A stretch of 64,000 nucleotides of DNA from Lytechinus variegatus (lineage: Eukaryota; Echinodermata; Echinoidea; Temnopleuroida; Toxopneustidae). The translations under genes and the position numbers were made by a program. Of the stretch, positions 15,877 through 62,953 are shown one piece after another. Location: assembly GCF_018143015.1 (NCBI RefSeq), contig NC_054757.1, forward strand, positions 7,794,501-7,858,500. Direction: 5' to 3'. Numbering within the stretch: the first letter of the stretch is position 1; each line of letters begins with the position of its first letter. Below the pieces are notes generated by a model. It saw only the letters and a program-made list of their open reading frames with translations. It searched no databases and had not been told where the DNA came from.

Positions 15877-18800
15877 GTAGGTTGGAACACGATTTTGTAT
15901 AAATGATGATATGGTTACCATAGTTATAATGATAATAACACAACGTACACTGTAAAAACTGCGGTGTTAAAACTGACACCGATTGGTGTTAATAGAGGAC
16001 CACACCCTGAGGTGTTAAAATTACACCCTAGAGATTAAACGTAACACCAAAGAGTGTAAATGTAACAACAAAAGGTGTTGTAATAACACCTATAGGTGTA
16101 AACTAACACCACCAATTTAACACCAGTGTAAAATAACTGGTGTGGTCCTCTATGTACACCGGTTAACACCACAGTTTTTGCCGTGTAGACGCTTTGCACG
16201 GATCAAAGCGATTTAAAATCGACGAAAGTTGGTATAGTTATGTTTATTATAATGAAACAAATTATTGAATTTTAAACAATGTCTTTACATTTCACACTAT
16301 TATCTTTGTCATAGTAAATTGGTTGATAGTTTGCAAAGAAATTATGATTGTTATGAAATATTTGATTGACATGATACAAATAATATTTTAAAAGGGTGAA
16401 AGAAATGCATCAATTCGGCCCCTTGTATGACTACCTTAAAATGGGCAATTTGAAATATACATGTATGTGTGTCGATGTTTTCGCCCTTATCCATTGAGAA
16501 CGTTTCTGTTAATTCCATAAACAAATATTCACACTTATCTGTCAATTACCATTAAGGCCACATTATCATTTGAAGGCTGAGATTATTATAATCATTTGTG
16601 TATTTTTGTCCTCGGTAGTTAATAAATGTGTGTTGTATAAAACTTCGTTTGCAATAAGAGTTTTCCGACTTTTATGATCCTCTATAAGTGACAATGACCA
16701 TTCTTTTTTAGAGTTTCGAGAGTGTAAGTTGATTATACAAATTTTACAAATTATTCCGCTTTGCACTACAAAACATACTTTAAATCTAGGCTTGCTAGAC
16801 TTCCCCATATGTTCCGTCCACGACGACGGGTATATCGCGAATTCCCGTCTCAATCGACGACCGGCAACCATGGACGACATCAACTTGACGAGGAAGTCGT
16901 GGCCGTTGACGAAGGCGCCACCGCAGTCGGCCCCCGTGGCCCGCCTGGCCCCTCTTGGGCGTCTTCCCGTTCACGCGATCAACTACCACCCAAATCACAT
17001 CAACCCAGCTCTCCAAAACCATAAGATCAATGCCCTTGAAGCGAATACCATATATGGGCGCTATCCAATGTCGTATCGGGAGAGGGCTGACCCAAAGTTT
17101 GGGCTGAGTAAGTCTACAGATCTGTGCAAATTTGGCCAGAATAATCTGTTTTTGTCTCTTGGTAGTTGATATATGGATGGTTGTGGATATGCTACCTAAC
17201 TCATTACGCCCATCGCATGCATCATTACTAATATTTAATAACGTTCTGTCCATTTTCTCTTCATCCTGTTCGGGTCCATCTTTTCATTTTGCAGATGCGG
17301 CAAGCAGTGATCATTCCCACTTAAGAGTATTACTCTTGGTTGACCCGATGTTGCATGCTGCTTTTTCATCCATTAACCAAAACTCCTTGCATGAACGTAA
17401 CAGACATCGTGCCGCCTTCCACCCCTATCCCCTCTTTCCGCTTTCGATTCTTTGAAGCTCCCTGTTTTAGGTTCCACATGGTCAAGGGAAAGGCAGAAGA
17501 AAACCAGAGTTAGAGGAAAACATGAAATATCACCACTCTTACAAACACTTGAAAGACGACCAACATTATTTTCTTACTCATGATGTACCCACTCCCATCA
17601 CCATAATCATAAATTCTTTAGTACGCAGGGAAAGGGTTAGTGCTGAACTCTTATACGCAGTAAAATATGAGGAAAGGATCAATCCATTTAAGAAGAGAGG
17701 GTACTTGTCCGGGGTACTTGTTTTGGAAGTGTTGCAATTATCAAAAATGAAAAATAGGCGAAATGTCGACACAATAGTGTCCAGCTCTTGAATTCCTCCA
17801 AAACTTACTGACGACAACCGGAAGTCAAGTGCACTTTCCCCTCAAAGTCCTGCCCATAATACCAACTAACAGCACTGAGGAACACTGTCCAGTCCATTGG
17901 GTGGCCATCGTCGCGATCGTCTTGACCATTACTGGTCAGTGTGGTCACCGTCAGCTATCAATTTCTGAAGGACACATCCCTTTAAATGTCCTGAGAATGT
18001 AAACAGATCGATGATTTCAGAAATAAAATGCACACTTTCCAGTCAACAGCGACGAGATATAACATTTTCCTTTGTCTCACGGGCCTCTACGTGCTCTTAT
18101 TTGATTAAGCTAGGACGGCATGTGTCAATTTTTTGCTTAAACCTCTGTTACAGTATATTACTTTTTTTCAGACTGACAGATGCAATCATTGCACCAATCA
18201 CGACTTTGTAACAGCCTTGACTAGACCTACTCTCATTTGGCATGTTCGACGCTTGCAACTTCGTTCATTGTTTCTGGACTCTGGCGCATTGCTTTTCATA
18301 AGTGACGTCTACAAATTATAGAAATCCCGAATTCACAGAACTTTTCCCACTCTGCACATACAATTTTGACATTATTCATGTTATTGCTACGTGCCAATTC
18401 TTCTTCCCGAACTTCGAGAATTTCCTAACACATTTATACAATTAAGGAAACATTGACGTTTACCGACAGTTCTCGTCAATACTCGTCAACATTTTTCGTC
18501 ACCCTCGACGCGAGGGATTTATAAGACTCCAATGCATACTACTTCATCATTTGTTCTAGCGTCTGAACAATCTTCAACATGACTATGAGAAGTTCGTCAA
18601 TATCTAATGCCTGCTTTGTCGGCAATATAAGCATACCTTTAGCGCTTACTCAAAATATCACCCCAACGCCGGCTAATGCTATTTCGACAACTCTGATGAT
18701 CCTACTTCGTCAACCATTACTTGTATTGTTTTGTTGTCGCGAGCACAGTCCATTTCAACAATTTAGACCCATCACCTCTTCGTCGATGTCAGTCACAAAG

Positions 18801-21800
18801 TCAATGACCGAGAGAATTTGTCGGATTCTGACCCACTCCACAATGACCATTATCATTTACGCAAGCCATTTAATGCCGTTCGCAAGCGTCCTCCCCCATC
18901 CCATCTTAATTATCCTTCTTTCCTCTATATCTTAGGTGGATAAAATCAATACATTAGACAATAATGCACTATACTCATAAATCTTTTGACATCGCAATCA
19001 CAGGCCTTCTCGATGTCCCGATCTGCGCCGTGCACGACGAGGGATACTTCACCAACCCACGGTTACGTCGTCGACCGGCGACGGCGGAGGCGAGAGGGAT
19101 GTATACCTTCCGCATCCCCAAGCCAGCCAAGGAGGTGTACAATCTCAACCCCACCATCAACGCCTCCCAATACCCGATCAACACCCTGACCGGACTCAGC
19201 ATGTTCCCGCAGGGGTTCAGGGAGAAGACCCACGCCCCAATGTTCGGCCTCAGTACGTTCCCATTTCGAGGATTTTATCTGTGTTTTGTGAATCTCACGA
19301 TTGCAGTGCATCTGTCTGACACCCACCCCCCTAAACGGACACCACACACCCCTTGCTTGACATGCCCCGCCCCACGACCTGCTCCTCCACGCCTTTTATT
19401 TCTTTCAGATTGCCGTTAGAAATATATTTCTCCATGCCGTCACATTTGCTCTGCTGTGTTCACACAATGCACATAATGTTAGTTGTTAAACAATATTCGT
19501 TAAATAGTATTTGTGTCATAAAGTTTGAACAGGGAAGTGCCCCAAATGTTAAATAGCCACCTCTTGCTCGTTAGTAATAGTGCACACAAAATATAATTTA
19601 CATGCAGAAGAAAAAAGAAAACTATAAATGACCAATGTTGTACAAATAAAATATCTACAATAACCAACTTCCAGAGACCTCCAATACATATTTTGTATTT
19701 CCCTTGAATAGCACATTGTGATTAGAGTTTAGAGGATTTAGAAGCAGAATTGTCTAATTTGGGTTGTCGAAATTTTATTCATGGGTCCTATATAGTTACA
19801 ATGAAAATAAATTCAGAAACACGATCATTTATGATACCAAATATACACGTTCCAGATTTATTTCTGCTCTCTATTTGCATCATATCCAATTGTCACGTGG
19901 CTAATCTACCTTTTCTGTAAATCAATCCTCTTCTTCATTTTTTAAAATCACAAAATTGCTTTCACTGCCTTTCCTTTCAACTGTTGCTAATCCTAAATTA
20001 TTAACAATAAAGGTAATATAATGTCGTCTAAGATTTTTTTTATATGCATCCCCTGTTTTTTATCACCTTAATTAGATTTTAAATGTATCGAGTTGTTAAT
20101 AATATCCTATTCTAAAAAAAATCTTCTTTTTGTGTATCATGTATAAAAAACTCTCCTTTTTATTCTTTGCAATTTAATTTAGCTTGTCGTTTGGGCTGAT
20201 ATAAAAGAGCACTTTGAACTAGCAAGAATGTAGCTGTTTTTTTCATTGCCCAAAACTTATGTCTTACGGTAACTTATAGTAACTCACGCGCTGACTGATT
20301 GGCTGTTTAGTGGTGTTGCCATAGTTACCTGACGTTACCGTGAATAATAAGTTGCATGAAGCGAAAATAAAAAAGAGAGCATATTTCATATCACTTGTGT
20401 GTATTTCACATTTTCATCTATGTTTTACTTCCATGATAATACTCATTGGGCGATTTCAAGTCCGGTGTTGGTGTTGAAATTTGGACACCTCAACAACTAG
20501 TGAGTGAATTTTCGGGACCATCTTCTTTTTATATTTGGTGTTATAATCGTGTAAAAATTGACCTAACACCAACACCAAAAGGTCAACACTGAACTTGATA
20601 TCATCCAGTGTATCTTCTGTGCATAATTTCATAATTTTGATCGCTCACTAATACACTAATTCTTCTTCCTGTAATCTTGTCATCACTATATAACAGCTTA
20701 ATCATTTTTTTTTCTTTCCGTAATGCATATAATATGAAAATGCGCACATTATTCTCATGCATGGCAATTTTTTTTAGCGATCACATTCCTTTCAAAACAC
20801 TAATTATTGCCGACTCTTTTGCGTTGTCATTTAAAGTGTGCTGTGAAACTAACTCATTTTGATTTTATTGATATGGAGTTGTCTATGTTTGAAATCAATT
20901 TCAATTACCAAAAAGTATTCGGTTTTCTTCAAGAAAGTAAGTTTAGATATAAATGGAAGAGAGTCGTGAATAAAAAAAATGAGAAATTGTTAAACACAAT
21001 ATAAAACAATCTAATGTTGATTCCTATTTTGTTTATAAGAAAGAAATATTTATTGAAATCAGATATTAATGATAGGAATATTACATCACATGTTCACTTT
21101 TTAAAGCTAAAGATAATTATACGAAAAGAATTGAAAACAAACTGAATAAAATAAAATTTGTTCTATTTCGTAGTTAATGGTAATAACATGTTCCTTTGTT
21201 ACAAAATCTTCAACTTAATAAAAATAAATTCATTCCAATTGAATTTATAGTTCCCGTCACCGACAAATGGAGGGATGAACTTCGGGAAATAACGGAGCAG
21301 GCTGGCTTCGGTTTGCCGAAGGAGATCAAGCAGGCCCAAGCCGAACAGCCGAAGCGGACTTCGGTCTATTCGGCAGACACTGGTCGGCTAATTCCGCCAC
21401 CCTCTCGGGCGATGACTCGAGGCGCCTCAAGACAAAAACATGAGCAACATGATCTCATGTACCACATCGCCGCCGAAGGCAGCAATGAATCACTGGTGAG
21501 TTTCTTCTTAATCATCATCTTCCTCCATCCCCTCTATTGTTTCTTTACCCCCCCCCCTCATTCATTCTCACCCCTCCCCTATTATATCAGTTTATTTAAA
21601 AAAAAATCTCCCTTTTATCTCCTTTCCTGATCTTGCTAGAATGTTAAAAAAGGAAAGAGGGAAAGACTGAAGAAGGAATATAGATTATGGAGGGCAGATT
21701 GAATTTTGAAATCGAATGATATGGTTGAAAACGTGAGGATCAAAGAGGACTAACGAAATTTCTATGTGAATTAAAGTGGAGTTCACTTTATCCTCAATCA

Positions 21801-24800
21801 ATTTGTTACCGGTAATAGGCATACATCGCAGTTTTGTTTCAGTATTTTTAATATACTGATTAAACAAATTTGACAAGTAAAAGTACAAACTGGTCTTCCC
21901 CTCTTAAACATTTCTACAAACCAAAAGCGATGAATCACTTTCACTTTTGATAATACGTGTATCGATCACAAAGCAAAACTATTTCAAACTTTAACCCTTT
22001 CCTCATTCATTGTTCAAAGTATCTTTTGATTATTGATTATTGATGTTAAATGCAAAACTTCGTGGCGTTTTCTTGCAAGTCTTGGCACATTGTGTCGCAT
22101 ATACTTTATTAGCGTTGTTGTATTCTCTGCACATTGCCCTAGGCAGCCTATAAGTTTGGAGCAAAGTTCGGATCGATATATCACATTGTTGTTTTACATG
22201 ATAATATCCATGTAGTTGAAGCGTTACATGTATGTAGACTCGTGCAATCGATAGCTTATTGTTCCGAGCAACAATAGAATTCAGGCGACGAAGGATGAGC
22301 AATAGTTCACGGAAGTTTGAAGGCAAAATAGTTCTTATTAAAGACCAATTCGATATGAATGGACTGTCAAGAGATCAAAGAATAGTAATCAGTCTTTTTC
22401 CAATCAGATTAGAGATTAAAAAGAATCGATTATTAAATTTCATTTACCTGAAATATGCAAAGGGCAAAACAGAAAAATAAAGGTCTAATAAATTTTGTCA
22501 AACAGCTGATAGAGTGAGTGAGGGAAAGGAAGAGAGCGATGTTGTGGGGGAAGTGAAATGCAACATTTTGAATAAAATAGATTATAACACTATTCGGAAA
22601 AGGTGAGATCATAATGATATAAGCAACTTTGTGCATTGCCTAAGTAAAAATTTAGTACGAGATGGAGGTTCTATTTTGGAGATGGTTTGTAGATAATGTC
22701 TGTGACTTTAGAATTCGATTGAACAAGTAAAGTTCAGAGACTTCATGATCATGCCAATTCTATGATAAAAAATATATCAACAAATAATTAAGCTCACGAA
22801 AGTTGAAAGTCCAGACAGTGTAAATAGACCCTTAAGACCCTTAAAACGTGTCTAATTTCGCACATTTCAAGTTGATAATGATAAGATAATTGAAAAAGCA
22901 GATACGGATGAGGTTTGAAAAAAGCCGGGGCAAAGTTAGACTGAAACTCACGGTCTACAATACGAGACAATAATTATGATCGACTGCCTCGAGGACCTAT
23001 ATGTAAATGTATGTTATTTCATAGAGGCATTATATAATCCATTTATATCAAATTTATATCAAAATTTGGACACAGTTTGCACATATTTCTTCTGATATTA
23101 CAGACACGCAACCTTCGTGACAATTGAGTTGTGCGGATTGGCTTTGCATTGCACTTGATATCTATTCTTTTTGTCAGTCGAGTAAGAATTAAGATACGAC
23201 AGACTGAATTATTGAGAAATGAGCTTAACAGTTTTCATTCAAGCAATGTTATCTGATAAATACTGCATCTCCGCTGCATGTATAAAATGGCACCTTTATT
23301 GAAATCTTTTATTTAAGGCATGTAAACTTATTCAAAGTTTATTGTCGAGTTCAAGACAGTGCTGGCCTCTTATCAGGCCACCCAAAATCCAATCGTGTAG
23401 CGTTTCATTCAATTTTATATGTGTATTTTTGTAATATTCCTGGAAAGAAATTACCCATAATTGGAGTTCCAAGAGCTAGGAAGGGCCATCAGGTAATATA
23501 AATAAATTGGGTCGAAAGTGAAAGATGTTTGGTGGTGGTGGACCATTTTTTTCTTGATAGTTAAAATTGCTGCAGTGTAAAGTGTTGACGTTATTGAAAG
23601 TGTTGTGGATGTGAACGGTTCATTGGATTGATTTCATTTCTGGTATGTCATCATCATCATGATATAGATTCAAATTATCTCATTCACAGTAAAAAAAAAA
23701 AATAGCATGTTGTTTAAGCCTGTCACTCTACAACATTTTAAAACGGTTTTGTAATTGTTTTAAACTTTTTAAACAACTTGTTTAAAAAGTTTTAACAGTT
23801 GTTTCAAAAGTTTAAACAGTAGTTGTTAGAGTGACTGGCTTAAACAATGTGCTTAAAATTTTAAACAGCGTTTTTACAATGTTCATCTGTTATTTTCAGA
23901 GATGACAATTTTCATCTATATGAAAACAATATTCCCATTTGTTTTTTATCAGATCTATATAAAAAAGTAGTTTTCATTATGCATTCGTCCATACTATAAC
24001 GACACTGTTAATATAGATGAATGCCAAAAATGGAACTACTTGCACTTTCTCCACTCCCGGGGAGCATTAGAGGGCGACATTTTAACACTTACTTTGCTGA
24101 GAAACTAAAATCATGATCAAGACAATGCTCAACTGCGCACAATGCATGACTCTCCACTCCCTGTGGAGCAGAGTAGTCAGGCGTCTTTTTGACTGAATAT
24201 TTTAAGCTGAGCAGACCACACCAATGTATGATTCAAACTTGTCCACTCGCACTCATAGTTGGGACCGGGACATACTCCACTTCCTGGGGAGCAATGCGCA
24301 ATGTTCGCACTTAAGTGCACGCTAAGCAGACTACATTAATGTTGTAAATCTATTCGACATACAGGTCCTTGAAATGCTTTGCCAAATCCTCCAGACAGAC
24401 TCCCTCAACGCAGTGCAATCATGGCTCGTATCGGCTGGAGAAAGAGGTAAGTTGTTTGCTTCTCTGATAAGTTTTCGTCTCATGAAATAAAATTTATTGC
24501 AACAACACAATTTATGTGTTCTACGGTCATTTACATTTGGGGGAATGAATGACTTCGGGGGAAGCGACGAAAAATTATAAATTTACTGGTGCATGAAAAA
24601 TAAGAGCATTCATTATGAACAAGTACGCCGCTGTATACAGGAGAGGGCGTGGGCGAGACCGCAAATATTTTTTTTTTCTAGTTGTAAAAGAGGGGGTGGA
24701 AATAGGAAGGGGAAATGAAGAAAGAAGGTTTATCAAAGAAATGAGATCTTGTCGTAAAATAATTCATATACCCTAATTATGCAATTGATAAAAACACATA

Positions 24801-27644
24801 CGTCTCCTTTGGGTCGTCTTCCACAATAGCCTTGCGACTCACATTCTTACGAATATTTCTCCCTTTTTTTAGATATAAAGTGGATTAAACATGCCCCATC
24901 ATATCCATTGGTAGACCTCATACAGAATGATTAATGAGTATCATTAACAAACGGAAAACAAATCAGAAAGTCGAATTAAACTCCCGGATTAAACTACACG
25001 ATGAGGAAAGAGAATTAGCATTCGAGATGAAAAAAACATCTCGAAAATGATTTCAAACTTTTTCCTCCATCAGTGGATTTTTTCTTCTTAATTTCATCAA
25101 GCAATTCAGTCTCCATTGCCAATAAATATTTACCATATTTTGTGTTCCAGGTGAAATAATCATTTTAATGAAAACCGATACATGTATTTACTGATAAAAT
25201 TTCCTGTTTGATATTTTCTCCTACTCTTTAGAAAAGGCACTGGTTCTCGACATGATTAAATCAGCATTTAGTAACGAGGCAGATTACTTCCAACGAACTG
25301 TCGCTGAAGCTTATAACGACGCTCCTGCACCGCCACCACCGCGCCCATCAACCAACCTACCGGCAAACATGAACGTCACAAACGGTTACGGCGACGTCGA
25401 TATTCCTTCGCCGCCGCCGTTCGCCGGGAGAGACATTCGTTACCAGGCTGTGGCAGAGGCAGCTGCTGGCCTCAAGACGCCAAAGAAGGTCGAAAATAAC
25501 CAAGAAAAGACGATATTTGACGCAGAAGGTAGTTTGAAACAATCTGTTTTTTCTAAAGTATCTAGACTTTCTCCCTTTCTTCATTCAAACTTCGTTCTCG
25601 ATTCCTGTAACTTTCTTATTCTCATTATAATGAATTCATCTATGTTTAACTCATGATTTAATTCTTTCTTTTTCTCAATAATCATTTGATAATTTCTTTA
25701 TTATTGCTCTTATGAAATATTGATATTTACATAACTACCCTGATACTATCGCACAGTTTTCTTTTTCTTCTTCTTGCTCTTCACTTCTTCTTCTTCTTAT
25801 TTCATTTTTTTGTGTTCAGATTCCACTTATTGTCCTTGATCATTTTCTTCTTACTACAGTACTACTACCACCACCACTGCAGCTGATACCACTGTTGCTG
25901 CTGAAACATCTCTTGGACCTCTACCACTTCTTATCATGCAATGAATTAACACATTTCTTTAATAGTCTTCTTTTTCACATTAACTTTGCAAATTTTATTC
26001 TTAGGAAGTTTACCAAAGTTGGATTTAAAGAAGAAAAATGATTCAAATGGTAAGATGGTTGGTGTCAGGTATATTTGTGATTGTTGTGGATTCAGACACC
26101 ACTCCTCTGCATGTAAGACCAACAGTTTGATTTGTTTTTGGTGCAGTTTACACCCTGCAAAAACTCCGGTGTTGATTTAATACCAGCTCGGAATCTATAT
26201 ATGTCCACGCCAGAGAAGTGTTGAACAACACCAGTTTGGAATCAAACTGATGCTGTTTTTATTCTAATTGGTATTATATAAACACCTATCTGGTGTTATA
26301 CCGAAACCAAACTGGTGTAGTTTAACACTTCTCTGGTGTGGACATATGTAGATTCAAGGCTGGTGTTAAATCAACACCGGTGTTTTTGCAGTGCAGCGTG
26401 TATTGATTTGGAGTACACTGTATGATGTATTAGGTTGAGTATACGGTTAATGCGGTGTGGGGACACTATAGGACATTGCCTTTGTAGCAAAATGGGTTGA
26501 ATCTTACGCATTTTCCATCACTTCTAACCCCAAAGTATTTCTTCATTTCCTTTTAATTGCAAAAATCAGAATTTCTGATTGAAAATTTTCAAATACTTGT
26601 TCATTACACCAACTTAAGATATAACTTTGAAAAATATCAAACATTAATCCACACTACCCCAGGGCTACAAAAAAGGTGTATAGAAGTATACCTTTGTGTG
26701 AGAAACTCTCCGAAATGTACCATTGCAACTTATTTCATTTAAATATCTTATATCAATACATCACCAAAAATAAATGAATTCCAAATGATTCACCAATTGA
26801 AAAAAAGGGGGAAGATAGAAAGAAACAAAATAAGACTGATAAAAAACATCCATTGATTTTAAAATGTTAATAATTAATTAAATACCATTCTGCATACTGC
26901 ATGTAAAGTGTGTGTAATTTGCATGAAATAAATCCTTTTGAATCTAGAGTGTTGAAACATTGATTTATGCATTGTTTTGAACTGAATTTGCAGATGTATT
27001 ATTGAGAGGATTTGATTTCGATTAGCTCAGTAATTTTCTACTTTTCCCTCCATATTAAAAAAATATATATTTTGTAGAACATGGGATGGGTGGGGGGTGC
27101 TAAACAATGTGTTTACAATCACAAACTAAATCTAAAATGGTTGGCTGTGAAATGATTAATAGTTTGGGGATTTTTGTCCGTTGAAATGGCATAATTTCCT
27201 TTATTAATCCTTCAGAATCATCCTTGACATTATGAGAAATTCAGGGGATGGTGGAAAAATTCAGGGAAAAATTTAACCTCAGGAAAAATTTACAAATTAT
27301 TTATTGCAAATCATCCAGCTCTGTAATCATTTAAAGACACCATAAACCAATGCTGGAAAACAACTCATATAAAATTGCTTTGGCATTGATCATATATTTT
27401 CTAAAGCAAATACTTAATAAGAATTCAAACTAAATACATTTTATAATCTCTTCTTCCAGATCACCCAGCCTTACGACAGAGAAGTCACAAACCAGATGTC
27501 TTCAAAATCGAGCACAATTCACCCCGTCCTGCAACTAAAAATGGGAAGCACCCAGCCAAGCTGCCGCCCCTTTCTCCCAAACATGAGAATGGACAAGAAG
27601 AACAGAATTGTGACTCTTGGAAACCAGATGATGCCGTCGTTTGA
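15648..27644 (+). CDS. tbata: TBATA/SPATIAL homologue, multi-exon gene
   Basis: Coding exons joined by GT-AG sites with phase kept throughout: 15648-15876, 16790-17107 (exon A), 19004-19252 (exon B), 21251-21495, 24365-24446, 25232-25528, 26005-26049 and 27460-27644 (TGA). Isoforms would be 466 aa with A, 443 aa with B, 549 aa with both. Hallmarks shared with vertebrate TBATA (thymus, brain and testes associated): FGQLSQSSFFARHNP (residues 53-67), then a PICxVHDxGY segment, a W-x-x-ELREI helix with YSADTGRLIPPPSRA, and LEMLCQILQTDSLNAVQSWL followed by GEREKALVLDMI. Human TBATA is about 350 aa; the excess lies in the A/B exon and a proline-rich stretch after the helical region. Vertebrate TBATA is linked to thymic epithelium, spermatids and microtubule/kinesin biology; its molecular activity is poorly defined. 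The ATG lies nine bases after a good acceptor, so the 5' UTR is spliced from upstream. Confidence 0.9.
15946..16187. mobile_element. MITE with GTGTT-rich ends
   Basis: Inverted ends TACACTGTAAAAACTGCGGT and ACCACAGTTTTTGCCGTGTA in the first TBATA coding intron. The inside is many GGTGTTA/TAACACC words. Confidence 0.65.
16790..17107 (+). CDS. tbata: TBATA duplicated exon, copy A
   Basis: 318 bases, phase 1 at both ends (acceptor AG 16788-16789, donor GTAAGT at 17108), so it can be skipped or included without a frame change. It encodes GLLDFPICSVHDDGYIANSR, then RLNRRPAT-like sequence, ending in ADPKFGL. Compared with copy B it has about 30 extra residues in the middle, rich in Pro, Ala and Arg (APPQSAPVARLAPLGRLPV). 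Confidence 0.85.
17108..19003 (+). other. TBATA intron between duplicated exons
   Basis: No third exon copy recognised. 18480-18560 contains TTTATAAG followed by ordinary-looking sequence, too weak to call a promoter. Confidence 0.4.
19004..19252 (+). CDS. tbata: TBATA duplicated exon, copy B
   Basis: 249 bases, again phase 1 at both ends (acceptor AG 19002-19003, donor GTACGT at 19253). It encodes GLLDVPICAVHDEGYFTNPR, an RRPAT motif, a middle resembling copy A (YNLNPTINASQYPIN), and ends HAPMFGL. Homology to exon A runs end to end, so this is a tandem exon duplication, used alternatively or together. Confidence 0.85.
19253..21250 (+). other. TBATA intron with a palindromic repeat
   Basis: Contains a palindromic element at about 20240-20365 (ACGGTAAC / GTTACCGT ends) and a GTGTT-word repeat at 20456-20600. 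Otherwise nothing recognised. Confidence 0.4.
21251..21495 (+). CDS. tbata: TBATA exon with GRLIPPPSRA motif
   Basis: The acceptor is TTTATAG ending at 21250 and the donor GTGAGT at 21496; it enters in phase 1 and leaves in phase 0. It encodes PVTDKWRDELREITEQAGFG and YSADTGRLIPPPSRAMTR, aligning with the human SSEAWKKELKELA and YSAETGRLIPASTRAV stretches. Confidence 0.88.
23705..23852. repeat. palindromic repeat in TBATA intron
   Basis: Arms GCATGTTGTTTAAGCCTGTC and GACTGGCTTAAACAATGTGC enclose TTTAAAC/GTTTAAA words. Intron 21496-24364 is otherwise unremarkable. Confidence 0.6.
24365..24446 (+). CDS. tbata: TBATA helical exon
   Basis: 82 bases between ACAG at 24364 and GTAAGT at 24447. It encodes VLEMLCQILQTDSLNAVQSW and LVSAGER, closely matching human LELLCRILETDLLSAIQFW. 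It ends in phase 1. Confidence 0.88.
25232..25528 (+). CDS. tbata: TBATA exon with proline-rich linker
   Basis: Acceptor CTTTAG ends at 25231 and donor GTAGTT begins at 25529. It continues the helical region (EKALVLDMIKSAFSNEADYF) and then runs into a low-complexity linker with two proline clusters (APAPPPPRP, PSPPPF). Phase 1 at both ends. Confidence 0.85.
26005..26049 (+). CDS. tbata: TBATA microexon-sized exon (45 bases)
   Basis: Acceptor TTCTTAG ends at 26004 and donor GTAAGA starts at 26050. It encodes SLPKLDLKKKNDSN, lysine-rich. Phase 1 at both ends and a multiple of three, so it could be optional. Identified only because both phase and splice sites fit. Confidence 0.7.
26151..26394. 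mobile_element. MITE, CTGCAAAAAC family, copy 1
   Basis: Ends CTGCAAAAACTCCGGTGTTG and CAACACCGGTGTTTTTGCAG are inverted. Nearly the same as 46449-46662. Lies in the last TBATA intron. Confidence 0.7.
27460..27644 (+). CDS. tbata: TBATA terminal coding exon
   Basis: Acceptor CTTCCAG ends at 27459. The frame set by the previous exon reads DHPALRQRSHKPDVFKIEHN, then a Pro/Lys-rich tail ending PDDAVV and TGA at 27642-27644. A longer overlapping frame (27496-27678) is not phase-compatible and was not chosen. I found no clear AATAAA in the first kilobase downstream. Confidence 0.8.
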
Positions 27645-33979: not shown

Positions 33980-36900
33980 CTGACAAAAAAAAGAAGAAAA
34001 TGAATAGAATGAAATAACTACTTGCATGTTAATTAAGTATGAGCATTAAAATCTGTTTTATTATGCATGATGTCTAATATATATTTCTATAATGAACAGA
34101 AGGATACTTTAACTTATTTTAAGTTATTTTTGTACTCATCGAGAGTTCACATTTTCCAATTTGGAAAACTCTACCTATATCCTGCACACAACCTTACATT
34201 TAGATTTGAATAACTTCTGCATTTTTCCTTTGAAAGTGCTTACCATGGTTGACAGCTAAAACCTTCCTAGAGTTGAGTTTCACAAAGTCACCAATCGGAA
34301 GTTGAGCGTGACTCCATCCATTCTCTATCACCTTCTCATAACAGTATCCCTGTTAAAGCAAGACAAAAGATAACAATGTTATGATATAATAGCTGGAGTT
34401 ATATAGCACTTTTTACCAGAGGTTACAAAGTGGATTTATGGTACCCCATCTTTAGCGACCACTTAATCAGCAGCACTCGATGCATTCAGCAAATTAATCA
34501 GAGGTTACAAATGGGTACCCATTCACCTCACCTGGGTCGAGCGCAGCACAGTGCAGATAAATTTCTTGCTGAATTAGACATGGAAATGCCTAGTTGCGAA
34601 TGTATATATTACAACCACTTACAAAGAATAAATGATGACATTACTGCAAAATGCTTTACAGACAGTGTTCTGATGTGTTAAAAATGTGCCATAGTATGTG
34701 AGGGAGTGTGTGTGGGTTTGGGTGCTTCCATGTGTTTCTGATGACGGCACAGAGGGTTGGGATTTTTAAAGATATTTCTCGTCTATTTTGCACATTATGT
34801 ACTGTATAATTTGTATCTATTTTGATTAAAAGGGCCCGATTGCAAACCAGCTCTTTATCTTTGTTAATGTTTTTATCGTGTATAACTGAATTGGATACCC
34901 TGTATAAAGATGTGAAATAAATAAAATACCAATATAAAAGTGGAGTACTAAAATCAATACTTCATGTAGCATATAATCATTGATGTCCAATTGTCCATCT
35001 TCTCTTTTACAGATTAATAGAAAGGTCAAACTGAATTAAAAGCAAACAGGAGAGAGGGAAGCACAGAGGTCTAATAGTATATAAGATGGACTTTATACTG
35101 TTCAAAACAAAATTATACAGCCCTCGAAGGATTGCAAATTTGGAACAATCTGCTAGCCTAAAAACAAAACCTGAACGCCATCCCTTTATCATCTAGGTAG
35201 CTAACCCCATGCAAAATAAGAATTGGGTAGTGTTTCACAAGGATTAAAGTGTGACTAAAATTCGCCCATACATTCCCAGTTGCAATCCATAAACGACACA
35301 TCACTGCATAGGGGTGATCATGCTCAGAGGATGCAATCTACTACTCTGGTTCAATGACATTTGCTCTGGCGACAATTACTCTGCTGTAAATTCCACACAC
35401 TAGTCAAATGAACAACTTCAACCCTGGGTTTAACACAATACCCTAATCTAAACCTAACCATAAAACCCTATTGCAACCCTAACCCTAAATCTTAGACGAA
35501 ATTAAGCCCGGAGCAATTGCCACAGGATCAAATGTTGTGTCACCACTACTCTATAATGGAAGCGTCGTGGTGTAGCAGTTCTGACTATCGCCTTGTATTC
35601 AGAGGGTCGTGTGTTCGAATCCCACCATGGCCTAACGTCCTTTGGCAAGGCGTTAATCCACATTTTGCCACTCTCTACCCAGGTGTTAAATGGGTACCCG
35701 GTAGGATGTGAAAGCCTATATGTAGTATGCCTAGCAATTGAGTCTTGGAACTCTTGTTGGAATGCTCCCCAGGGAATGGAGAAGGTGCACACATTGTATG
35801 CGGGCATGCAAGGATCCGATGACCGGGGTAATAATATGTCTGTAAAGCGCTTAGAGACGTCATTCCGATGTATCAAGCGCTATACAAATGCAGAATATTA
35901 TTATTATATCACACTTTACTCTTTGTGAAACACCCCCCTCTCTAGATTCTACTAAGGAGTGTGTACAGACCTTGTAATGGTTGTGATCAACTAGACCACC
36001 GATGATATAGGCCTTGTTTGGATCCAGGTCTTGGAGTATATTAGGAGACTCAGCTGCCAAGTAGACTACATTCTCAGATCCAAACGCCGCTTCAGGCTCT
36101 TCTTCTCTGAAGTGAATCTGCCATAAAATATAAATTATTTCTGTTTGATAAATAAATTTGCACCTTGGATTCAAAGACTTGTAGCAACCAACTCATAAAA
36201 CAAGCCTTAGGAGATAATTGCCATCATGGCACATCACAAACTGTCAACACTGAAAGCTCACCAACTTGTTAAGGCGACCACACACCTTACGATTGGTCTG
36301 CAACCCGATTTCAGAAAAAAATGTAGTAGAATTTGATGCTACCATTGAAACTTGGAATATCTTACTGTGTAATGTTCTAAATCATCGTACGAATACCTAT
36401 GTTCAAATCTGTGACCATGCTATCATCCTTCTTAGAATAAAAGCGAATTTAATATCTAGTCGTAATGATGTCATAGCAGTCGTATGATTGGCTATGATTT
36501 GAAACTAATTTCGCCTTTACTCCGAAATAAAGGCTTGCAATCTTTCAAAATGGTTGTATTAGTATTTTTTCAATTAATTTAAACCTCATATAAAATGATA
36601 TGTTCCATTCACATTTTCAGAAAATGAGCAAAATGCGATTTGTTCCAAAATCAGACAGTCGCAAGGTGTGCGGAGGCCTTTAATGAAAGCTGAATATTAC
36701 AATCAACTCAACTTTCAAGAAATTGTTTGTGAACTTCTTCTTCAGGTGAATGCCAAAACAAAGAGTTGAAATAAATTCACTGAGAAAAACAGTGACAATA
36801 TCATTCATGTTACATAACCAACACCAAAAAGGAACTTACAAATTTTAATGATCCTTCACAAAGAAAATTTTGATTCATACAGAGTTCATCTAATCATTTA

Positions 36901-43600: not shown

Positions 43601-43732
43601 GTGATAGTGCCTGGCTTCGTTACTATCTGTGCAGCGGCGACTAAACGTCTAAGTATCCTCCCTCTGAGTTAGAAAGTGAAGCAGTCACCGTTTAAAAAAA
43701 TCCTTACAAAATCTTCCAGAGACGGTACTCAA
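40651..43732. other. intergenic between divergent TRMT10A and MAM gene
   Basis: Holds an AT-rich palindrome (41234-41334) and a possible element 41108-42242 with ends like ACTCGCATG...GCGAGGTTAG. Inside it are CTCACGCATTATGCGTGAGA and similar words. Promoters of both genes must lie here but no specific site stands out. Confidence 0.45.
41234..41334. repeat. 101-base AT-rich palindrome
   Basis: Two 49-base arms with roughly eight mismatches around a TTG-centred loop. Shared words are AATAAAATT, CTTGATTAT and AATAATTATTA. Confidence 0.65.
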
Positions 43733-43802
43733 ATGGTGACAATGATTATGTTATCTCTGATTGTAGTTTCATTACAACAGGCATGCGTGACAGAAGCATC
43801 AA
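43733..43802 (+). CDS. MAM protein exon 1 (signal peptide)
   Basis: Encodes MVTMIMLSLIVVSLQQACVT and EAS, a typical secretory signal. The second Met (43742) could equally start translation. Donor GTAAGTG at 43803, phase 1. Confidence 0.75.
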
Positions 43803-46800
43803 GTAAGTGCCAAAAATTATCATGAATATTTCGATTTTCTTTTATAATTTTGTCGATTTTATTTTGCTTGTCAAATATTGATATCGACATTGGTATTGGA
43901 TAAGCAAATATATCCCCATGCACCGGTCGTGTTTTAGAAACGCTCGGCCAAAACAGGATTACCCAAATAAAACAAAGGTTGAAAGTTAAACAACGTCTCC
44001 AGGCGCCAGAGAAGAGTAGTTATCTGAATAAATGATATATGTTCGTGAAAGTAGAAATAAGAAAAAATAACGCAACTGAACTGAACCAATCACCAGGTGA
44101 GACTCACCTGTTTTGTTTTTCTTCTTCAATGTTTACTATAAATATTGATTCAAGATATACATGTATTCAAGCAGGGAGTTAGGACGTTATTAATTTTCCC
44201 GCAATCAGTACATATTGATTTAGTATGATACCTTACACTATCAGTTGAAAACGAATTATCAAGTTTTGAAATGCTTTTGAAAAATAAAAAAACCCATTCT
44301 CTTTAATGGCAATGAAATATTATATATTTTTATACTCTCTATCTGCTCGTGATCCTATATGAACAACTTGCTTTAAAAAGGCAAAGTTTTGATGATTTTA
44401 AATTATTTATTGCGAAATTAGTTTAGTTCTGATATTTTGTGTGAATGGGTAATTTCGTACTTCCTGTTGTACTGAGGAATATGCATATTGAGTCTGTTAG
44501 ATTTTTTCCGTCATATATTTGCAATGTAAGTTTACCTCAAAGCCGCTTTCGCTTATCATTTTTGTCTGGTTTAGTTTCTGCTTTCTGTGAACAGATTGGT
44601 CATTATCAATTATCAGTCAGCCAGCCCACTGCGCCCTGATCGAAACGCCATGGATTTTATTATTGTTAATTGCATTCTCTATCCCTCCTTTAAAAAAAGT
44701 TGATTGGTAAAAACTACTTTCTTTTCTTTTAATCGACCCCTGAAGAGTTTCGAAAGTGGGAGGGAGACTGAGCTTGCAAAAAGTAATGATTGTCATCTTT
44801 ACGACGTGTACACGGTTATTGAAAAAAATGGAGCCCCCCCATGCATGTTAGCGATATTCCTTCTTTTATTGTATATTTTGCCTCTGAAATAATCATGATT
44901 CATATCATTGCAATTTCGATTATCTTTCTGCCATGCTAGTCCTTTTTTCTTGCGATTTTGGGAGAGAAGTCTTGAAGAAACCCGGACATAATGCGTGTGC
45001 TATCACATCACAAGACTGGAGAATATACAACGCTCTGACCATGGCGGGCCGTTATGGTGCGGCCAGATCTATGGACGATTTAGGTAAGATATATATTATA
45101 TGATATTGATATGATATTACTCAAAACTAACACTAAATACAAGATTGCTTTTCGATTTTTTTTACTTTATCTCAGCACATAACTTCTAAACACTTTAATA
45201 TTACTTACTTATCTTTCCTATCAAAGTAAGTTCGTTTTTCTGTTTTGGAAACGGAAACAGCAAAAACGGAATATTTAGCCAAAAGTGATTCTGAATTGGT
45301 GATTTTAGACAACAAAACGGTCTTTTATCAATAAGTCGTATCAGGAATGAAATAGGTAAAACACATTAAAAAAAACCACACAACCGTTTTTTTTTCGTTT
45401 TACCGTTATCTATAAAAAATTATTTTATGTATATTTTCTCCGCATTAATTCAGACGGGTATTACGTCCTTCAACGGATGACTGGAGGGGGTCGCTTCACC
45501 CTACCCCCTCTAGAAACTCAGTCACCCAAGGTCCGTCTCTCCTTCTTTTATAAATTCATCACGCCAGGAAGATGCGGATTTGACGTGACCGGTGGACAAA
45601 AAGTTATCCCCATCAATATAAACATCACCTCTCAAGTTGATAGGTGGCTCCAATTTCGCGGCGTCACTTTCACCTGCCGAACTGACATTCAAAACACTTG
45701 CCCACAGGTAGGTCCATAAATTCATCATACTGCAAAATTAGTGGTGTCAAAACTGAGAAGACCATATCAAGCACTTTAAACCAGTGTTGATTTCACGATA
45801 TTAATTGAGCACCGATGAATCTTATTACAATTTCAGCGGGACATCTTTTGCCCAGTTATTTTGAGAGTAATAACGGCTCTCGTGTTTTCGAAATTATATT
45901 TCATTATATAAACATCCCTGAAGCCGCGTGCAATATTTCATAATTTAAAGGTGTGTGCTATAATGGGTTGAATGAATGAATTAATTGTTTGTTCTAAATT
46001 TGATTACTTTATACATAGATTGTCTTCAAAGGTACTTGCGGTAAGAATACCGGCGTTGTGGCCGTGGATGATATCGTCGTCGAAAGTTTTGACGGTTAGT
46101 TAAAATGCTTTTTTTTTCGTCAGTACTTTTGTACCAGACGCGACAAGGCACTATATCGTAGCCGTTACTGTTCTTGAATAATAATAGGTATGATGATATA
46201 ACAGGGTGTATTTAGTCAGACTACACCTTACGTGGCAGGGCACTGGAAACGATTTTTCAATATAGGGGTCTGGTTTTCATACAAGCAAAAAAAAATAGTA
46301 ATAAAAAATTAAGAGTTTCCCTACTAAAACACTGCATAGTATTATTGTATCATAGAAATGATTTATATATTATATTTTGTAAATATGTATTTTAAACTAT
46401 CATTGTAAATGTAAAAAGATTGAAAGAGAAAATAAATGAATTGAATTGAACACCAGCCCGGAATCTATATCTGTACACACCAGAGAAGTATTGAAATAAC
46501 ACCAGTTTGGAATTAAACCGATGCTGTTTTAATACTAATTGGTGTTGTATAAACACCTATCTGGTGTTAGACCAAAACGAAACTGGTGTTGTTTAACACT
46601 TTTCTGGTGTGGGCAGATATAGATTCCGGGCTGTTGTTAAATCAACACCAGGGTTTTTGCAATGAAGAAGGTCATTTTGGAAGGTCATCTAAGGGGAAAA
46701 ATCGGCACATGCACACTTCGCGCTCGCATTAGTTGACCATGATGAGATGTATGCTCTTCATGGATTCCTAAACAGAGTCCTTAAAATGTTTCTTCTTTGA

Positions 46801-49508
46801 TAAACAATAATTTTAGCTCGCACTCAGCGCTCGCATATATGCCCATTCTGCTTTATGAATGTATTAATTAATTCAATTAGTATAAGTTTGGGATTGTCAT
46901 TTTTTTTCAAGCAATCTGCTTATGATGACAATCCTCCTGCAAATTGTGAATATCATATAGTTAATCATTTTTGTATGTAAGTATTTTTTAGTACTCTTTA
47001 TTTATGATTCATGCCAAAAATGCTATACATATTATGTTTATTATGTTATGAAAAATGTATTATACGAATGTTTTTGATGCAGAAGAAAACAATAAATCAA
47101 ATCGAATCAAATCAGTTATTTGCTTAGTGAGACATGATTACATAAATGTACTTACAATGTTCCGTTCACAGATATAAAAAAAATCAACTTGCGCTTAATT
47201 CGCGCTCGCGATATTTGGTTAGTGAGATTCATAGGCCTTTCATGAATTCCTATCAACACTCCTTAAAATGTATCTTTTCAGGTAGGTATATCTAGCTATT
47301 TGCACACTCAGTATGTTGTAATTCAAAAGTTTTGGTCATGCCCCCGCCCCCCCCCCCCTTGCCGTGACCCAAGCCACTGGTGACAGGATTAAACTCTAAA
47401 ACAGTGAGTGTTTTACGGTGTAAGCATTTATAAGTTCCTGTAATACTTTCAGTTATTCACGTGTGCCACATGTTTCCGGCCCAAGTTTACCAACTCCTCC
47501 CGGCCGCCACTGACGTCTAGGATAAACCATATCCGAATCAACTCCTTATAACACTGACCATAAGGGCTATACCAGCTAACTAAAGAGTTCTAAGAACTTT
47601 CAACCGCACTAACTTGCACCGAGTATCACCACACCACTTATACTAGAGCTACCTTGATAGATAGTTAAATGTAGACCAATCAGAGCATTATAGATCAGTT
47701 ATACCGAAATTTTGATATAGACTTCAAGACCTATACATAGAATTTAAGCTTAGATATCGACAATCATAATTCTGAATTATTGCTTCTACCGCATACGGTG
47801 GTTTGCATGTACTTCGTTGATTTACTAGTAATATATACTATTAATTTAATGGAAAGGTTTATTGGAAAGCTAGATTTATTGAAATCTATTGGAAAGGTAA
47901 ATAAATGCTTCGTGATTTAACTTTACTATTTATGCTTCTCGTCTAAAATACCATACCATGGACGGTCATAAAACTGTGCATGTCGATGGGCATGGTATTA
48001 GCGAGCATAACTCCGTCACATTCAGATAATTCCCTCCAACAATTTATTGGATTTCCATTTTTGACATGTTTGATACTTATTTGCAGCTACATGCTAAAAA
48101 TGAGATAATACTACATCGCTTAGATTTTGTTTGTATTAAGCGCTGTAATGTTACATAATTATTATAGTATTATCACTTTATTATTATTATTATTATTACT
48201 ATTATTATTATCATCATTATTGTCATCATCCGATGTCGTCGTCATCATCATCATCATCATTATCATTATATACATGGATTTTAGAACGTAAGTAGCCGAA
48301 ATTTATTTTGGCAATATTTCATAAACTTTTAATGGGTATATTGTAAAGCAACATTCATCATTAGCCATACAATATGGTTAATATCATTGTTCTACACAGG
48401 TAGAGTTTAATCCTATTCTCTTCAATGAGTGGACTGTGGTTTACTTTTCGGGGCAGTATGTACTCGACTTGCTCAAGAAATGTAGTATGCATGGGCATGC
48501 TGTAAACGAGTAAATGGGGGGAGGGGGTGATCCAGGATCCTGTGGTCGGGGAGGGGCCATTCTGCCTTTTCATTATTCATTGGAAGTCCAAAACTAAAGT
48601 CGTCATAAGTTACAACGCTCAAGGAGCATTTAATAAGATGGCCTATGAATTAGATAGGAATTAACAATCATTTTCCAACTGTTTTTTTTTGTTTAATCAA
48701 AATCCTGATATAATTATTCTTCCTAGATCTACATACGGCAATGGACTTGACTTCCATCGCTACTTCAAGAGACTTCGAAGTAACATTTAAAAAAGCAGCT
48801 CGGTCAAGCACGTCTGCACCCAACACTTCAACTCTTCAACTCCGACCGACCATGATCACGAACCTCCCAACGATCACGACGTCGAGTCCGATAGCGACCA
48901 CTATTCCATACCCAAGCGCCATCGCACTAGCCGTGCTTTTCTTCATGATGACCATCGTGATAATTTTCTTACTGTCGAAAATCTTCTCGTCGAGACCGTG
49001 CTCGCCGCAGAAATATCCACACCTGGATAGGGGAGCAGAGTTTGTTCGAACACTTTCGAACCCGATTACCCGAGTGTCAAACGATGGCACTGACGTAGAG
49101 AGGTTAGTCCATCAAGCTGAGCATAATTTTCAAGATCATGAAAGACATTTGTATATCCCAATGACAGCAAGGACACAGTGGTGTGGTGCTCTGCAAGAGA
49201 GAAACGCCGGGGAAAGCACGGACGTCGATGACCAGCGGACGGACGACGATGACGACGACGAAGACTACGTTGAGCCTGGTGAAGATCTGTACGTGAATTC
49301 CTTTTGGATTCGTCATGTGCAGTCGGGTGATTGTGAAGTTCCTCGGGCGTGTTGCAAAACCAGCAACTTGGAAGACCTTGCCCGACATGGACCAAGACGC
49401 CATTTGACCGGTGACCTGCGGAGTCATGACGAGGCAAGAGACGAAGGAAATGATGATGAGTTTTGTCCTAACCCGACGTACGCTCCATTTGAAGAAATGT
49501 CTTTATAG
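43733..49508 (+). CDS. MAM-like single-pass membrane protein with tyrosine-motif tail
   Basis: Exons 43733-43802, 44940-45083, 45454-45707, 46019-46094 and 48727-49508 (TAG) give 441 aa with all phases consistent. Residues 1-20 form a hydrophobic signal peptide. Residues 24-181 resemble a MAM domain (Meprin, A5, mu): CDFG start, paired Cys (28, 43, 112, 146, 154, 163), DGYYVLQ, a central LSFFYKF strand, W136 and closing GVVAVDDIVVESF. A Ser/Thr/Pro-rich stalk (about 205-244) precedes one membrane helix (about 245-268). The cytoplasmic tail is acidic and holds YIPM (Y324), YVEP (Y362), YVNS (Y370) and NPTY (430-433). The topology suggests a cell-surface adhesion or signalling receptor. I do not recognise a named orthologue, and there is no kinase or phosphatase domain. 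Confidence 0.85.
44940..45083 (+). CDS. MAM protein exon 2
   Basis: Acceptor ATGCTAG ends at 44939 and donor GTAAGA starts at 45084. Encodes the N-terminal part of the MAM-like fold, with CDFG, the second Cys and the SQDW motif. Phase 1 at both ends. Confidence 0.8.
45454..45707 (+). CDS. MAM protein exon 3
   Basis: Acceptor TTCAG ends at 45453 and donor GTAGGT starts at 45708. Encodes DGYYVLQRMTGGG, the central beta strands and three Cys. It contains one N-glycosylation sequon (N128-I-T). Confidence 0.85.
46019..46094 (+). CDS. MAM protein exon 4
   Basis: Short exon encoding IVFKGTCGKNTGVVAVDDIV and VESFD, the characteristic C-terminal strand of a MAM domain. Acceptor ACATAG, donor GTTAGT. 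Phase 0 to 1. Confidence 0.82.
46449..46662. mobile_element. MITE, CTGCAAAAAC family, copy 2
   Basis: In the last MAM-gene intron. Shares ACACCAGAGAAGT, TTTGGAATTAAAC and ACACCTATCTGGTGTTA with 26151-26394. A retroelement tail (AATAAATGAATTGAATTG) lies directly before it. Confidence 0.65.
46680..47400. repeat. GCG-core repeat remnants in the last MAM intron
   Basis: Cores CTTCGCGCTCGCATT (about 46717), CTCAGCGCTCGCAT and TTCGCGCTCGCG (about 47200), then a C-run at 47341-47358. Related to the arrays at 8 and 9.5 kb. Confidence 0.5.
48180..48270. repeat. ATT/ATC microsatellite
   Basis: TTA units pass into TCA units, interrupted by CCGATGTCGTCGTC. Confidence 0.85.
48727..49508 (+). CDS. MAM protein exon 5 (stalk, membrane helix, tail)
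   Basis: Acceptor TTCCTAG ends at 48726. One open frame runs to TAG at 49506: Ser/Thr-rich stalk, hydrophobic helix (ALAVLFFMMTIVIIFLL), basic stop-transfer region, then an acidic tail ending in NPTYAPFEEMSL. A poly-Asp run (DDDDDDED) sits just before YVEP. Confidence 0.88.
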
Positions 49509-49742: not shown

Positions 49743-49748
49743 AATAAA
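49743..49748 (+). terminator. poly(A) signal of the MAM protein gene
   Basis: Canonical AATAAA 235 bases after the stop codon, on the coding strand. It is the first one downstream. Confidence 0.5.
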
Positions 49749-61621: not shown

Positions 61622-61727
61622 ATGGAAATTCGATCGTCAGGTCTTCTTCAATTGGAACATTCTGGCTGGATAGGTATAGCATCTTCCTGTTGATATGTAA
61701 GGCGCCATGCAGCTTGATATACAGTGA
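61622..61727 (+). promoter_or_regulatory. cluster of upstream ORFs in the receptor leader
   Basis: Three upstream ATGs lie within about 105 bases of the main start: 61622-61693 (23 codons plus TGA), 61695-61700 (a minimal ATG-TAA), and 61707-61727 (six codons, its TGA overlapping the main ATG by one base). Such arrangements usually lower translation of the main ORF. Confidence 0.5.
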
Positions 61728-62953
61728 TGGAAACCGAAACGTCTACTTTGGCGGGAATAACCACGCTTGGATCTGACACGGGACTTGATGGGGACACAGG
61801 TGTAACTGCCGTCCGAATCGTCTTAATGTGCTTGCTCTACATTCCTTTAGCGGTTATAACTGTTCTTGGAAATGCTTTCGTTTTTGCAGCATACAGACGA
61901 GATGAGAGAATACGGAGCAAGAAGACAAATACGTTTATTCTCAACCTGGCCATTGCCGATCTCCTCGTTGGCATCATCATGTTCATTCACATCCCCCATT
62001 ACCTCACGGATAAGTGGCTCCTTGGAAGGGAGTTCTGTATCATCATTTGGGCCATCGATTTCATCTCAACCGATATGTCCGTCATCACCATCATCGCCAT
62101 CAGCATCGACCGGTACCTCATGGTGAGCGATACAATTAAACACCAGCGTCATCAGTCCCGGAAACGCATCGTCCTTATCTTCATCGTTGTCTGGTTCGTC
62201 TGCAGTCTCGTACATACCACGCTTGCCTTCGTCTATTCTGCAAGGACGGACTACAAGTACCTCGAGTATCAGACCTGTAATTTGGAATACCGCCGTGAGA
62301 AGGCTCTGGTTATTTCCATGTTCATCATCGAGTTTGCGTTGCCCGTGGCGTGTCTGTTTCTGCTGAACCTGAAAGTGTTTACTAAAATACAGGAGCGGAG
62401 GGGGAGCAAGATACAATTAAAAAGGCGCCAAGAAGAGCATCGGAACTCCAATACCGTCTCCGGACGGATGAGCACAAAACATGCAAATGGCACAAAGAAA
62501 CCCCCTGGACTCCGCTCGATCGATGAAGACAGTGTGCTTACGAGTGTCGATGGTGGAGCTGCTGTTGACGCAGCAGAATACAGTAGAGGATATCCTGGAC
62601 CAAGTGCTCCGATGGTTGGTGCTCTTCAAGAAGGGCAAATCCTGAGGAAAGCTTCCAACGCTGTGATGCGCGTCCATCGTATGACGTCATCAGGTCGGGG
62701 TACTTGGAAAGCAGCCAAACTTCTAACAACCCTTCTCGTGGTCTTCATCCTATGTTGGATGCCGTACTACATCAACGACTGCTATGTCCTCATACACGGT
62801 GATGAAGCCAACCGTCGGGTGACGGAGGCAGTGACGTTCATCCTATGGGCGAACTCCGCCGTCAATCCCATGTTGTATGCATGCGCCAACGTTCATTACA
62901 GGGAGAATTTCTTTTACTTTTTGCACATCAGAAAGAGGCCGATGAACAACTAG
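61727..62953 (+). CDS. class A amine-type G-protein-coupled receptor
   Basis: 408 aa in one exon. The frame also opens three bases earlier with GTG, but the ATG at 61727 is taken as start. Seven hydrophobic segments with class A anchors: N49 in TM1 (LGN), D78 in TM2 (LAIADLL), C104 and C184 for the extracellular disulfide, DRY at 128-130, W156 in TM4, P206 in TM5, CWMP 343-346 in TM6 and NPMLY 380-384 in TM7. D111 sits at position 3.32, the amine-binding Asp. The third intracellular loop is long (about 110 residues) and polar, the C-terminal tail short, as in muscarinic, histamine H3 and related receptors. Position 7.43, usually Tyr in amine receptors, is Trp here. The ligand is not predictable from this alone. 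Expected at the plasma membrane, coupling to G proteins. Confidence 0.92.
   Translation: METETSTLAGITTLGSDTGLDGDTGVTAVRIVLMCLLYIPLAVITVLGNAFVFAAYRRDERIRSKKTNTFILNLAIADLLVGIIMFIHIPHYLTDKWLLGREFCIIIWAIDFISTDMSVITIIAISIDRYLMVSDTIKHQRHQSRKRIVLIFIVVWFVCSLVHTTLAFVYSARTDYKYLEYQTCNLEYRREKALVISMFIIEFALPVACLFLLNLKVFTKIQERRGSKIQLKRRQEEHRNSNTVSGRMSTKHANGTKKPPGLRSIDEDSVLTSVDGGAAVDAAEYSRGYPGPSAPMVGALQEGQILRKASNAVMRVHRMTSSGRGTWKAAKLLTTLLVVFILCWMPYYINDCYVLIHGDEANRRVTEAVTFILWANSAVNPMLYACANVHYRENFFYFLHIRKRPMNN

Follow-up and report, generated by a model that had tools for sequence, protein, structure and literature searches.

Receptors of the CD6 and CD28 type, which carry SRCR or Ig ectodomains, belong to vertebrate lymphocytes, and the tail of CD28 contains the motif YMNM. 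In the published excerpts that describe them, CD6 has a cytoplasmic region of 244 residues with a YxN site that binds the SH2 domains of GADS and GRB2 (PMC5440646), and CDCP1, a glycoprotein that crosses the membrane once, has five tyrosines on its inner side, each of which can be phosphorylated, and docks Src and PKC-delta (PMC3534080). The two proteins as portrayed there are worked examples of how such tails operate without a kinase of their own (PMC3534080, PMC5440646). Here we describe a gene on the forward strand of a 64,000-nucleotide stretch of the Lytechinus variegatus genome (RefSeq assembly GCF_018143015.1, contig NC_054757.1, positions 7,794,501 to 7,858,500; hereafter the window, within which all positions are given). 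The gene, labelled C18, has four paralogues labelled by contig as C9, C17a, C17b and C17c, and it probably encodes a type I member of a small family of non-catalytic, SH2-docking receptors with MAM-like ectodomains. We commit to a non-catalytic docking receptor because YxxM and YxN motifs recur within the family.

The window protein of 441 residues consists of a signal peptide (residues 1-23), a MAM-like region (24-181), a Ser/Thr-rich extracellular stalk (48729..48917, matched by Ser/Thr-rich stretches in the same place in the paralogues), a transmembrane segment at about residues 247-264 (IALAVLFFMMTIVIIFLL, 48921..48974; hydropathy up to 3.08, with basic residues on its C-terminal side) and a cytoplasmic tail (residues 265-441, 48975..49505), all encoded on the plus strand. 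The tail was given 173 residues in the initial annotation and counts 177 here, the difference depending on where the transmembrane segment is taken to end, and its acidic background, also claimed there, is borne out by 38 acidic against 19 basic residues. Five tyrosines are present. Y278 lies in YPHL (a YxxL motif, 49014..49016), Y324 in YIPM (YxxM, 49152..49154), Y362 in YVEP (YxxP, 49266..49268, preceded by an acidic run), Y370 in YVNS (YxN, 49290..49292) and Y433 in NPTY (NPxY, 49479..49481); the last four had been named before and fall exactly at their claimed positions in the spliced protein, and Y278 is an addition. By the usual SH2 and PTB consensus assignments, YxxM fits the SH2 domain of PI3K p85 and YxN that of Grb2-type adaptors. 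YIPM occurs twice in the C9 tail and YYDM is found in that of C17a, and YxN is present twice in C9 and four times in C17a. As had also been proposed, no enzyme domain, kinase or phosphatase, is listed by Pfam for the window protein at an expectation value (E) of up to 1. With a single predicted transmembrane segment, no listed enzyme domain and tyrosine motifs beyond chance, the window protein is by its sequence a predicted docking receptor of the non-catalytic class, the family exception for YxxM and YxN being C17b.

Since the motifs were chosen after the window tail had been seen, the paralogues weigh more as a test. Shuffling of the window tail gave P values of 0.057 for YxxM, 0.20 for YxN, 0.013 for NPxY and 0.0002 for all three together, and four of seven stricter motif classes were present (P 0.00095). 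The window tail could not be aligned with any of the paralogue tails. In the C9 tail YxxM and YxN nevertheless amount to four occurrences against 0.61 expected (P 0.0016) and in that of C17a to five against 1.07 (P 0.0029), and the C9, C17a and C17b tails combined give P 0.0004, where the statistics are shuffles of short tails and C17c stands outside the test. Pooled over the five tails, 11 of 35 tyrosines fit YxxM or YxN, with one match for the mirror (backward) motifs, compared with 1 of 29 tyrosines and one mirror match in the five ectodomains (Fisher P 0.008 for tail versus ectodomain; three of the ectodomains and the C17c tail are partial). The claim of a docking tail is supported for YxxM and YxN, which recur in two paralogues with non-aligning tails, and not for NPxY and YxxP as a family pattern; in C17b it finds no YxxM or YxN to rest on. 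Matches of the tails to DUF2635, DUF2171 and A36R lay below the cut-off and were taken as chance.

The affinity of the ectodomain to MAM domains becomes apparent mainly at the level of the family. As an isolated domain, residues 24-181 of the window protein match the Pfam MAM model (PF00629) with 13.1 bits, under the cut-off of 26.4 bits, at E 0.086 over 24,736 models; taken as one pre-named family, the chance of such a match is about 3.5e-6 (E divided by the number of models). With the full-length protein as query, MAM is missing from the Pfam matches listed up to E 1, and a single-sequence PDB search returned no MAM domain, its matches being confined to designed proteins and one unrelated enzyme of plants. 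Against a hidden Markov model (HMM) built from 18 canonical MAM exons, exon 3 of the window gene, which codes for the core of the domain, took sixth place in a field made up of 2000 shuffles and the exon itself, and it did not stand out when the same HMM was run over 2141 open reading frames (ORFs) of the window (E 19); hhalign gave a probability of 10% and P 0.003. As to the jelly-roll fold, an AlphaFold model of exon 3 alone, from the single sequence, had a mean predicted local distance difference test score of 40.5 and was set aside. The single-sequence evidence for MAM is weak, and the case rests on the family profile. In the PDB, the profile built from the five genes finds first the MAM domain of RPTP-kappa (E 0.0028) and that of enteropeptidase (E 0.0076), then an SR-C-like chain (E 0.24), and MAM is the sole Pfam family listed for the family domains, with 13.2, 20.4, 15.0 and 15.9 bits in four of the five members, each under the cut-off; C9 matched nothing.

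The exon structure points in the same direction. Many canonical MAM exons of this genome have a phase 1 intron at or immediately ahead of G-Y-Y-[MIV] and a phase 0 intron directly preceding a strand of the IIYEG kind, and the same phases, 1 in and 0 out, were read from the DNA for the core exon of all five family genes. Among the canonical loci 17 of 28 are compatible with this arrangement (16 of 20 fetched in one set, and L008), where the phase-0 donors were chosen by eye among several candidates and a few, as in L011 and L012, are weak; the non-fitting loci comprise seven that are without the first intron (L001-L007), one without the second (L026) and three that gave no phase call (L019, L025, L027). 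The genome itself is rich in canonical MAM exons, with 150 scored of 1039 candidates, located on contigs C3, C5, C6 and others, and many clustered on C6 and C5.

The cysteines, in turn, depart from the canonical arrangement. The third MAM cysteine, directly before L.F[WY][YFH], is found in 18 of 18 canonical exons and in none of the five family members, although the canonical count is partly conditioned, as the selecting pattern required C, A, V or S at that position. The 18 exons were drawn from the 28 canonical loci, leaving out L001, L002, L004-L007, L019 and L025-L027, where the pattern was missed or the exon was a near-duplicate or fused. The family has instead a cysteine 12 (C18, C9) or 19 (C17a, C17b, C17c) residues beyond the first position of LSF, with a further one at +42 to +46, and the two N-terminal cysteines are present in the window domain as C28 and C43. 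The conserved cysteines that form two internal disulfides in MAM domains are thus not retained as a set, and the positions suggest a moved disulfide in the family, its pairing being putative. The MAM domain of the initial annotation is upheld as kinship, by the family profile and the exon phases, and falls short in its single-sequence score and in the canonical third cysteine; judged from these data, the ectodomain is MAM-related and not a standard MAM domain.

The paralogues were found in a search of the animal's own genome covering 869.6 Mb in 33 contigs, and the five genes are a lower bound for the family. The window domain as query gave three weak non-self matches, on C9 (E 0.7), C19 (0.85) and C17 (2.6), and once the DNA was read a fitting exon was present at those on C9 and C17 and not at that on C19. 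With C17a as query, C9 (E 0.006), C17b (0.15) and the window gene (0.41) were matched, with C9 as query C17a (0.007) and the window gene (0.22), and C17b and C17c match each other reciprocally (E 5.6e-8 and 8.5e-9). The C9 paralogue lies near 8.138 Mb of its contig, and those on C17 near 1.364 Mb (C17a), 14.689 Mb (C17b; L047-L049, C17:14669201-14699200) and 14.980 Mb (C17c; L064-L066, C17:14960901-14990900). For the core exon, all 10 pairs among the five genes score above each of 500 shuffles, and in the five-gene alignment LP, LSF.YK, W, C and P are the same throughout; the alignment also includes a VAVDDI strand as in MAM. Exon 4 was found in four genes and exon 2 in three (C18, C9 and C17a), and reading of the paralogue regions did not reveal exon 4 of C17a, exon 2 of C17b and C17c or the end of the C17c tail. 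In both C9 and C17a a single last exon carries the stalk, transmembrane segment and tail and ends in a stop codon without a kinase. Unlike C18, C9 and C17a, the genes C17b and C17c, which are about 290 kb apart, appear to have the transmembrane segment and the tail on separate exons, in C17c with at least one tail exon containing tyrosines, these exons being assigned from position and open frame only; the two genes look like a sub-family. Matches at L030, L035, L053-L058, L062, L063 and L070-L074 were judged to be chance on reading the DNA. Two of these were dropped for want of a fitting open exon in spite of their scores, L035 (C19, E 0.85), which scored between two kept matches of the same search, and L070 (C5, E 0.027, stops present), with a better score than several kept matches had in their own searches. 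A degenerate-codon pattern for LSF.YKF hit 151 places against 214 for its backward control and was uninformative.

The gene model of C18 has five exons on the plus strand (43733-49508), joined in frame with intron phases 1, 1, 0 and 1. Exon 1 (43733..43802) encodes the signal peptide, with a hydropathy of 1.99 at residue 1 and a phase 1 donor, and an in-frame stop at 43670 precedes its ATG. The MAM-like region is contributed by exon 2 (44940..45083; ILFSCDFG...CAI...W, phase 1 at both ends, with related exons in C9 and C17a), exon 3 (45454..45707; DGYYVLQ...LSFFYKF...W...C...CPQ, phase 1 to phase 0) and exon 4 (46019..46094; entered in phase 0 and left in phase 1, with the C-terminal strand IVFKG...VAVDDIVV), the last of which is identical to C9 exon 4 in 14 of 22 residues (E 1.8e-4 with the four paralogue regions as database). 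The stalk, transmembrane segment, whole tail and stop codon are provided by exon 5 (48727..49508), whose splicing is in frame and whose frame is open across 264 codons, as in 0 of 5000 base shuffles; an AATAAA polyadenylation signal (49743..49748, plus strand) follows about 235 bases past the stop. The donor sites of exons 1-4 are CAA|GTAAGTG, TAG|GTAAGAT, CAG|GTAGGTC and ACG|GTTAGTT. There are 25 splice combinations that stay open, and the acceptors of the chosen model retain two features seen again in paralogues, the SCDFG start and the strand IVFKG. The tail is unlikely to derive from another gene, since a single exon holds the stalk, transmembrane segment and whole tail and continues the frame of the MAM-like exons, a layout that C9 and C17a share; no second copy of exon 5 was found in the own-genome search. 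Intron 4 harbours a foldback element at 46445-46642 that resembles a miniature inverted-repeat transposable element, with inverted arms of 51 nucleotides that are 86% complementary, and a related arm pair lies at 26192-26354.

Several observations weigh against a family of docking receptors of this kind. The motifs are short and were picked after the tail had been seen, the C17b tail has eight tyrosines and neither YxxM nor YxN, and the part of the C17c tail that was found is likewise without them. NPxY occurs in one of the four tails counted, that of the window gene, where F stands at -6 and C at -5 from Y433, unlike the FxNPxY spacing of LDLR; YxxP is found once each in C18 and C9, not in C17a or C17b, and is enriched in none. 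Every family member is below the Pfam MAM cut-off, and a single origin of all five genes, separate from that of other MAM genes, is no more than likely, as the weaker exon 3 scores within the family (40-58) overlap the best scores against the 18 canonical exons (38-58). An ordinary fast-evolving disordered tail, with tyrosine motifs that arose by chance in a protein acting mainly in adhesion through its ectodomain, would be in line with the post hoc choice of motifs, with the values for YxN and YxxM taken singly in the window tail, with C17b and with the lack of tail sequence conservation between paralogues. The enrichment in C9 and C17a is out of sample, though, and persists when C17b is included, and together with the mirror-motif and ectodomain controls it makes this account quite improbable.

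A scavenger or endocytic receptor would be a different use of the same architecture, in which the MAM-like domain binds particles or a soluble ligand, the tail mainly presents sorting signals for clathrin uptake (YPHL as YxxPhi, NPTY as NPxY) and PI3K or Grb2 docking is minor. Both signals are present in the window tail, and the SR-C-like chain comes next after the MAM domains among the PDB matches of the family profile. Class C scavenger receptors of invertebrates are moreover described, in the cited text, as CCP and MAM domains with one transmembrane segment and an intracellular region, and shrimp MjSRC as binding beta-arrestin2, itself a clathrin binder (PMC5222524). This role nonetheless seems unlikely to be the principal one: no CCP domain is listed in the Pfam search of the window protein, the three paralogue tails counted lack NPxY whereas YxxM and YxN recur in two of them, and YxxL/I shows only a mild enrichment in C17b (P 0.028) and none in C18, C9 or C17a. 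Descent from a receptor of the ALK type, through loss of the kinase and retention of the MAM domain and the NPTY and YxxM docking sites, would fit the two MAM domains and juxtamembrane NPxY of ALK and the NPxY sites and YxxM of LTK, as given in the cited excerpt; according to the same text, however, the LTK YxxM sits within the kinase domain and would vanish with it (PMC3276580). No LDLa, Gly-rich or kinase match is listed by Pfam for the window protein, the window domain lacks the canonical third cysteine and the last exons of C9 and C17a stop without a kinase, which renders such an origin extremely improbable.

For the non-catalytic docking receptor, we infer a mechanism in which the one diverged MAM-like domain, presumably a jelly roll given its kinship, would be kept at a distance from the membrane by the Ser/Thr-rich, probably O-glycosylated stalk, and the long acidic, probably disordered tail would act as a multivalent phosphotyrosine scaffold. 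Clustering of the ectodomain, whether through a ligand, an adjacent cell or self-association, might then allow a Src-type kinase to phosphorylate the tail, whereupon YIPM would recruit PI3K via p85 and YVNS Grb2-type adaptors; in the window member, NPTY and YPHL could engage adaptors of the PTB or clathrin kind, by which the signal would be limited or taken into the cell. As the MAM domain of neuropilin-1 is reported, in the excerpt cited, to be a monomer in solution (PMC5104691), the ectodomain by itself is not bound to form dimers. On contig C11 of the same genome, two adjacent exon-sized matches to the p85 iSH2 domain exceed the cut-off, and the same search also matched, under the cut-off, one of 14 control genomes. 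The tails of the family appear to diverge freely, with two paralogues retaining p85- and Grb2-type docking sites. In a broader and more tentative reading, the genes, at least five in number, may form a hitherto undescribed family of MAM-derived receptors whose disulfide is rewired and whose fast-evolving tails lose similarity but retain multivalent docking of the p85/Grb2 type. Such a family would be the invertebrate counterpart of receptors of the CD28/CD6/CDCP1 type, possibly with a role in self or immune recognition in an animal that has no lymphocytes. No MAM receptor with a non-catalytic multi-tyrosine tail is described in the literature titles and abstract openings examined, which is weak evidence of novelty. 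If correct, the proposal would add a receptor class that couples a MAM-type contact domain directly to PI3K and Grb2 docking without a kinase or phosphatase, and a case, across several genes in one animal, of tails turning over in sequence yet keeping the kind of docking site.

Other genes are indicated in the window by Pfam matches. A Rhodopsin-family G protein-coupled receptor occupies one open frame at 61718-62950 (Pfam 7tm_1, 151.9 bits, whole model covered). A SPATIAL/TBATA-like gene lies on the plus strand at 16678-25653, with a Pfam SPATIAL match of 44.6 bits in 21187-21627 and neighbouring ORFs that have no matches and may be further exons, and an exon of a tRNA (guanine) methyltransferase-type gene is found on the minus strand at 35863-36192 (Pfam PF01746, 45.2 bits).

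Compared with known systems, the family resembles the MAM domains (PF00629) of RPTP-kappa/mu, neuropilin-1, meprin and enteropeptidase in its profile match over most of the domain, its exon phases and its VAVDDI strand, and differs from them in scoring below the Pfam cut-off and in the cysteine before the L.FWY strand, which is absent in all five members, with at least two cysteines elsewhere in the exon. A MAM-like ectodomain distinguishes the window protein from CD6 with its SRCR ectodomain, whereas a non-catalytic tail with a YxN site, as far as CD6 is characterised in the excerpt, is common to both. CDCP1 is similarly portrayed as single-pass with five tail tyrosines, as in the window protein, but has a CUB ectodomain, for which Pfam lists no match here. 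The MAM domains of ALK, the NPxY sites of ALK and LTK and the YxxM of LTK, as reported in the cited excerpt (PMC3276580), have their likes in the window protein, for which Pfam lists no match to the kinase domain of these receptors. The class C scavenger receptors Drosophila SR-CI and shrimp MjSRC are likewise, in the text cited, MAM-bearing type I receptors of invertebrates whose intracellular region recruits an adaptor, but they have two CCP domains and the partner shown there is beta-arrestin2 and not an SH2 protein (PMC5222524). The class C scavenger receptors, ALK/LTK, CDCP1 and CD6 are the nearest systems by design, and the first three each differ from the window protein in one defining feature, CCP domains, a kinase and a CUB ectodomain, respectively.

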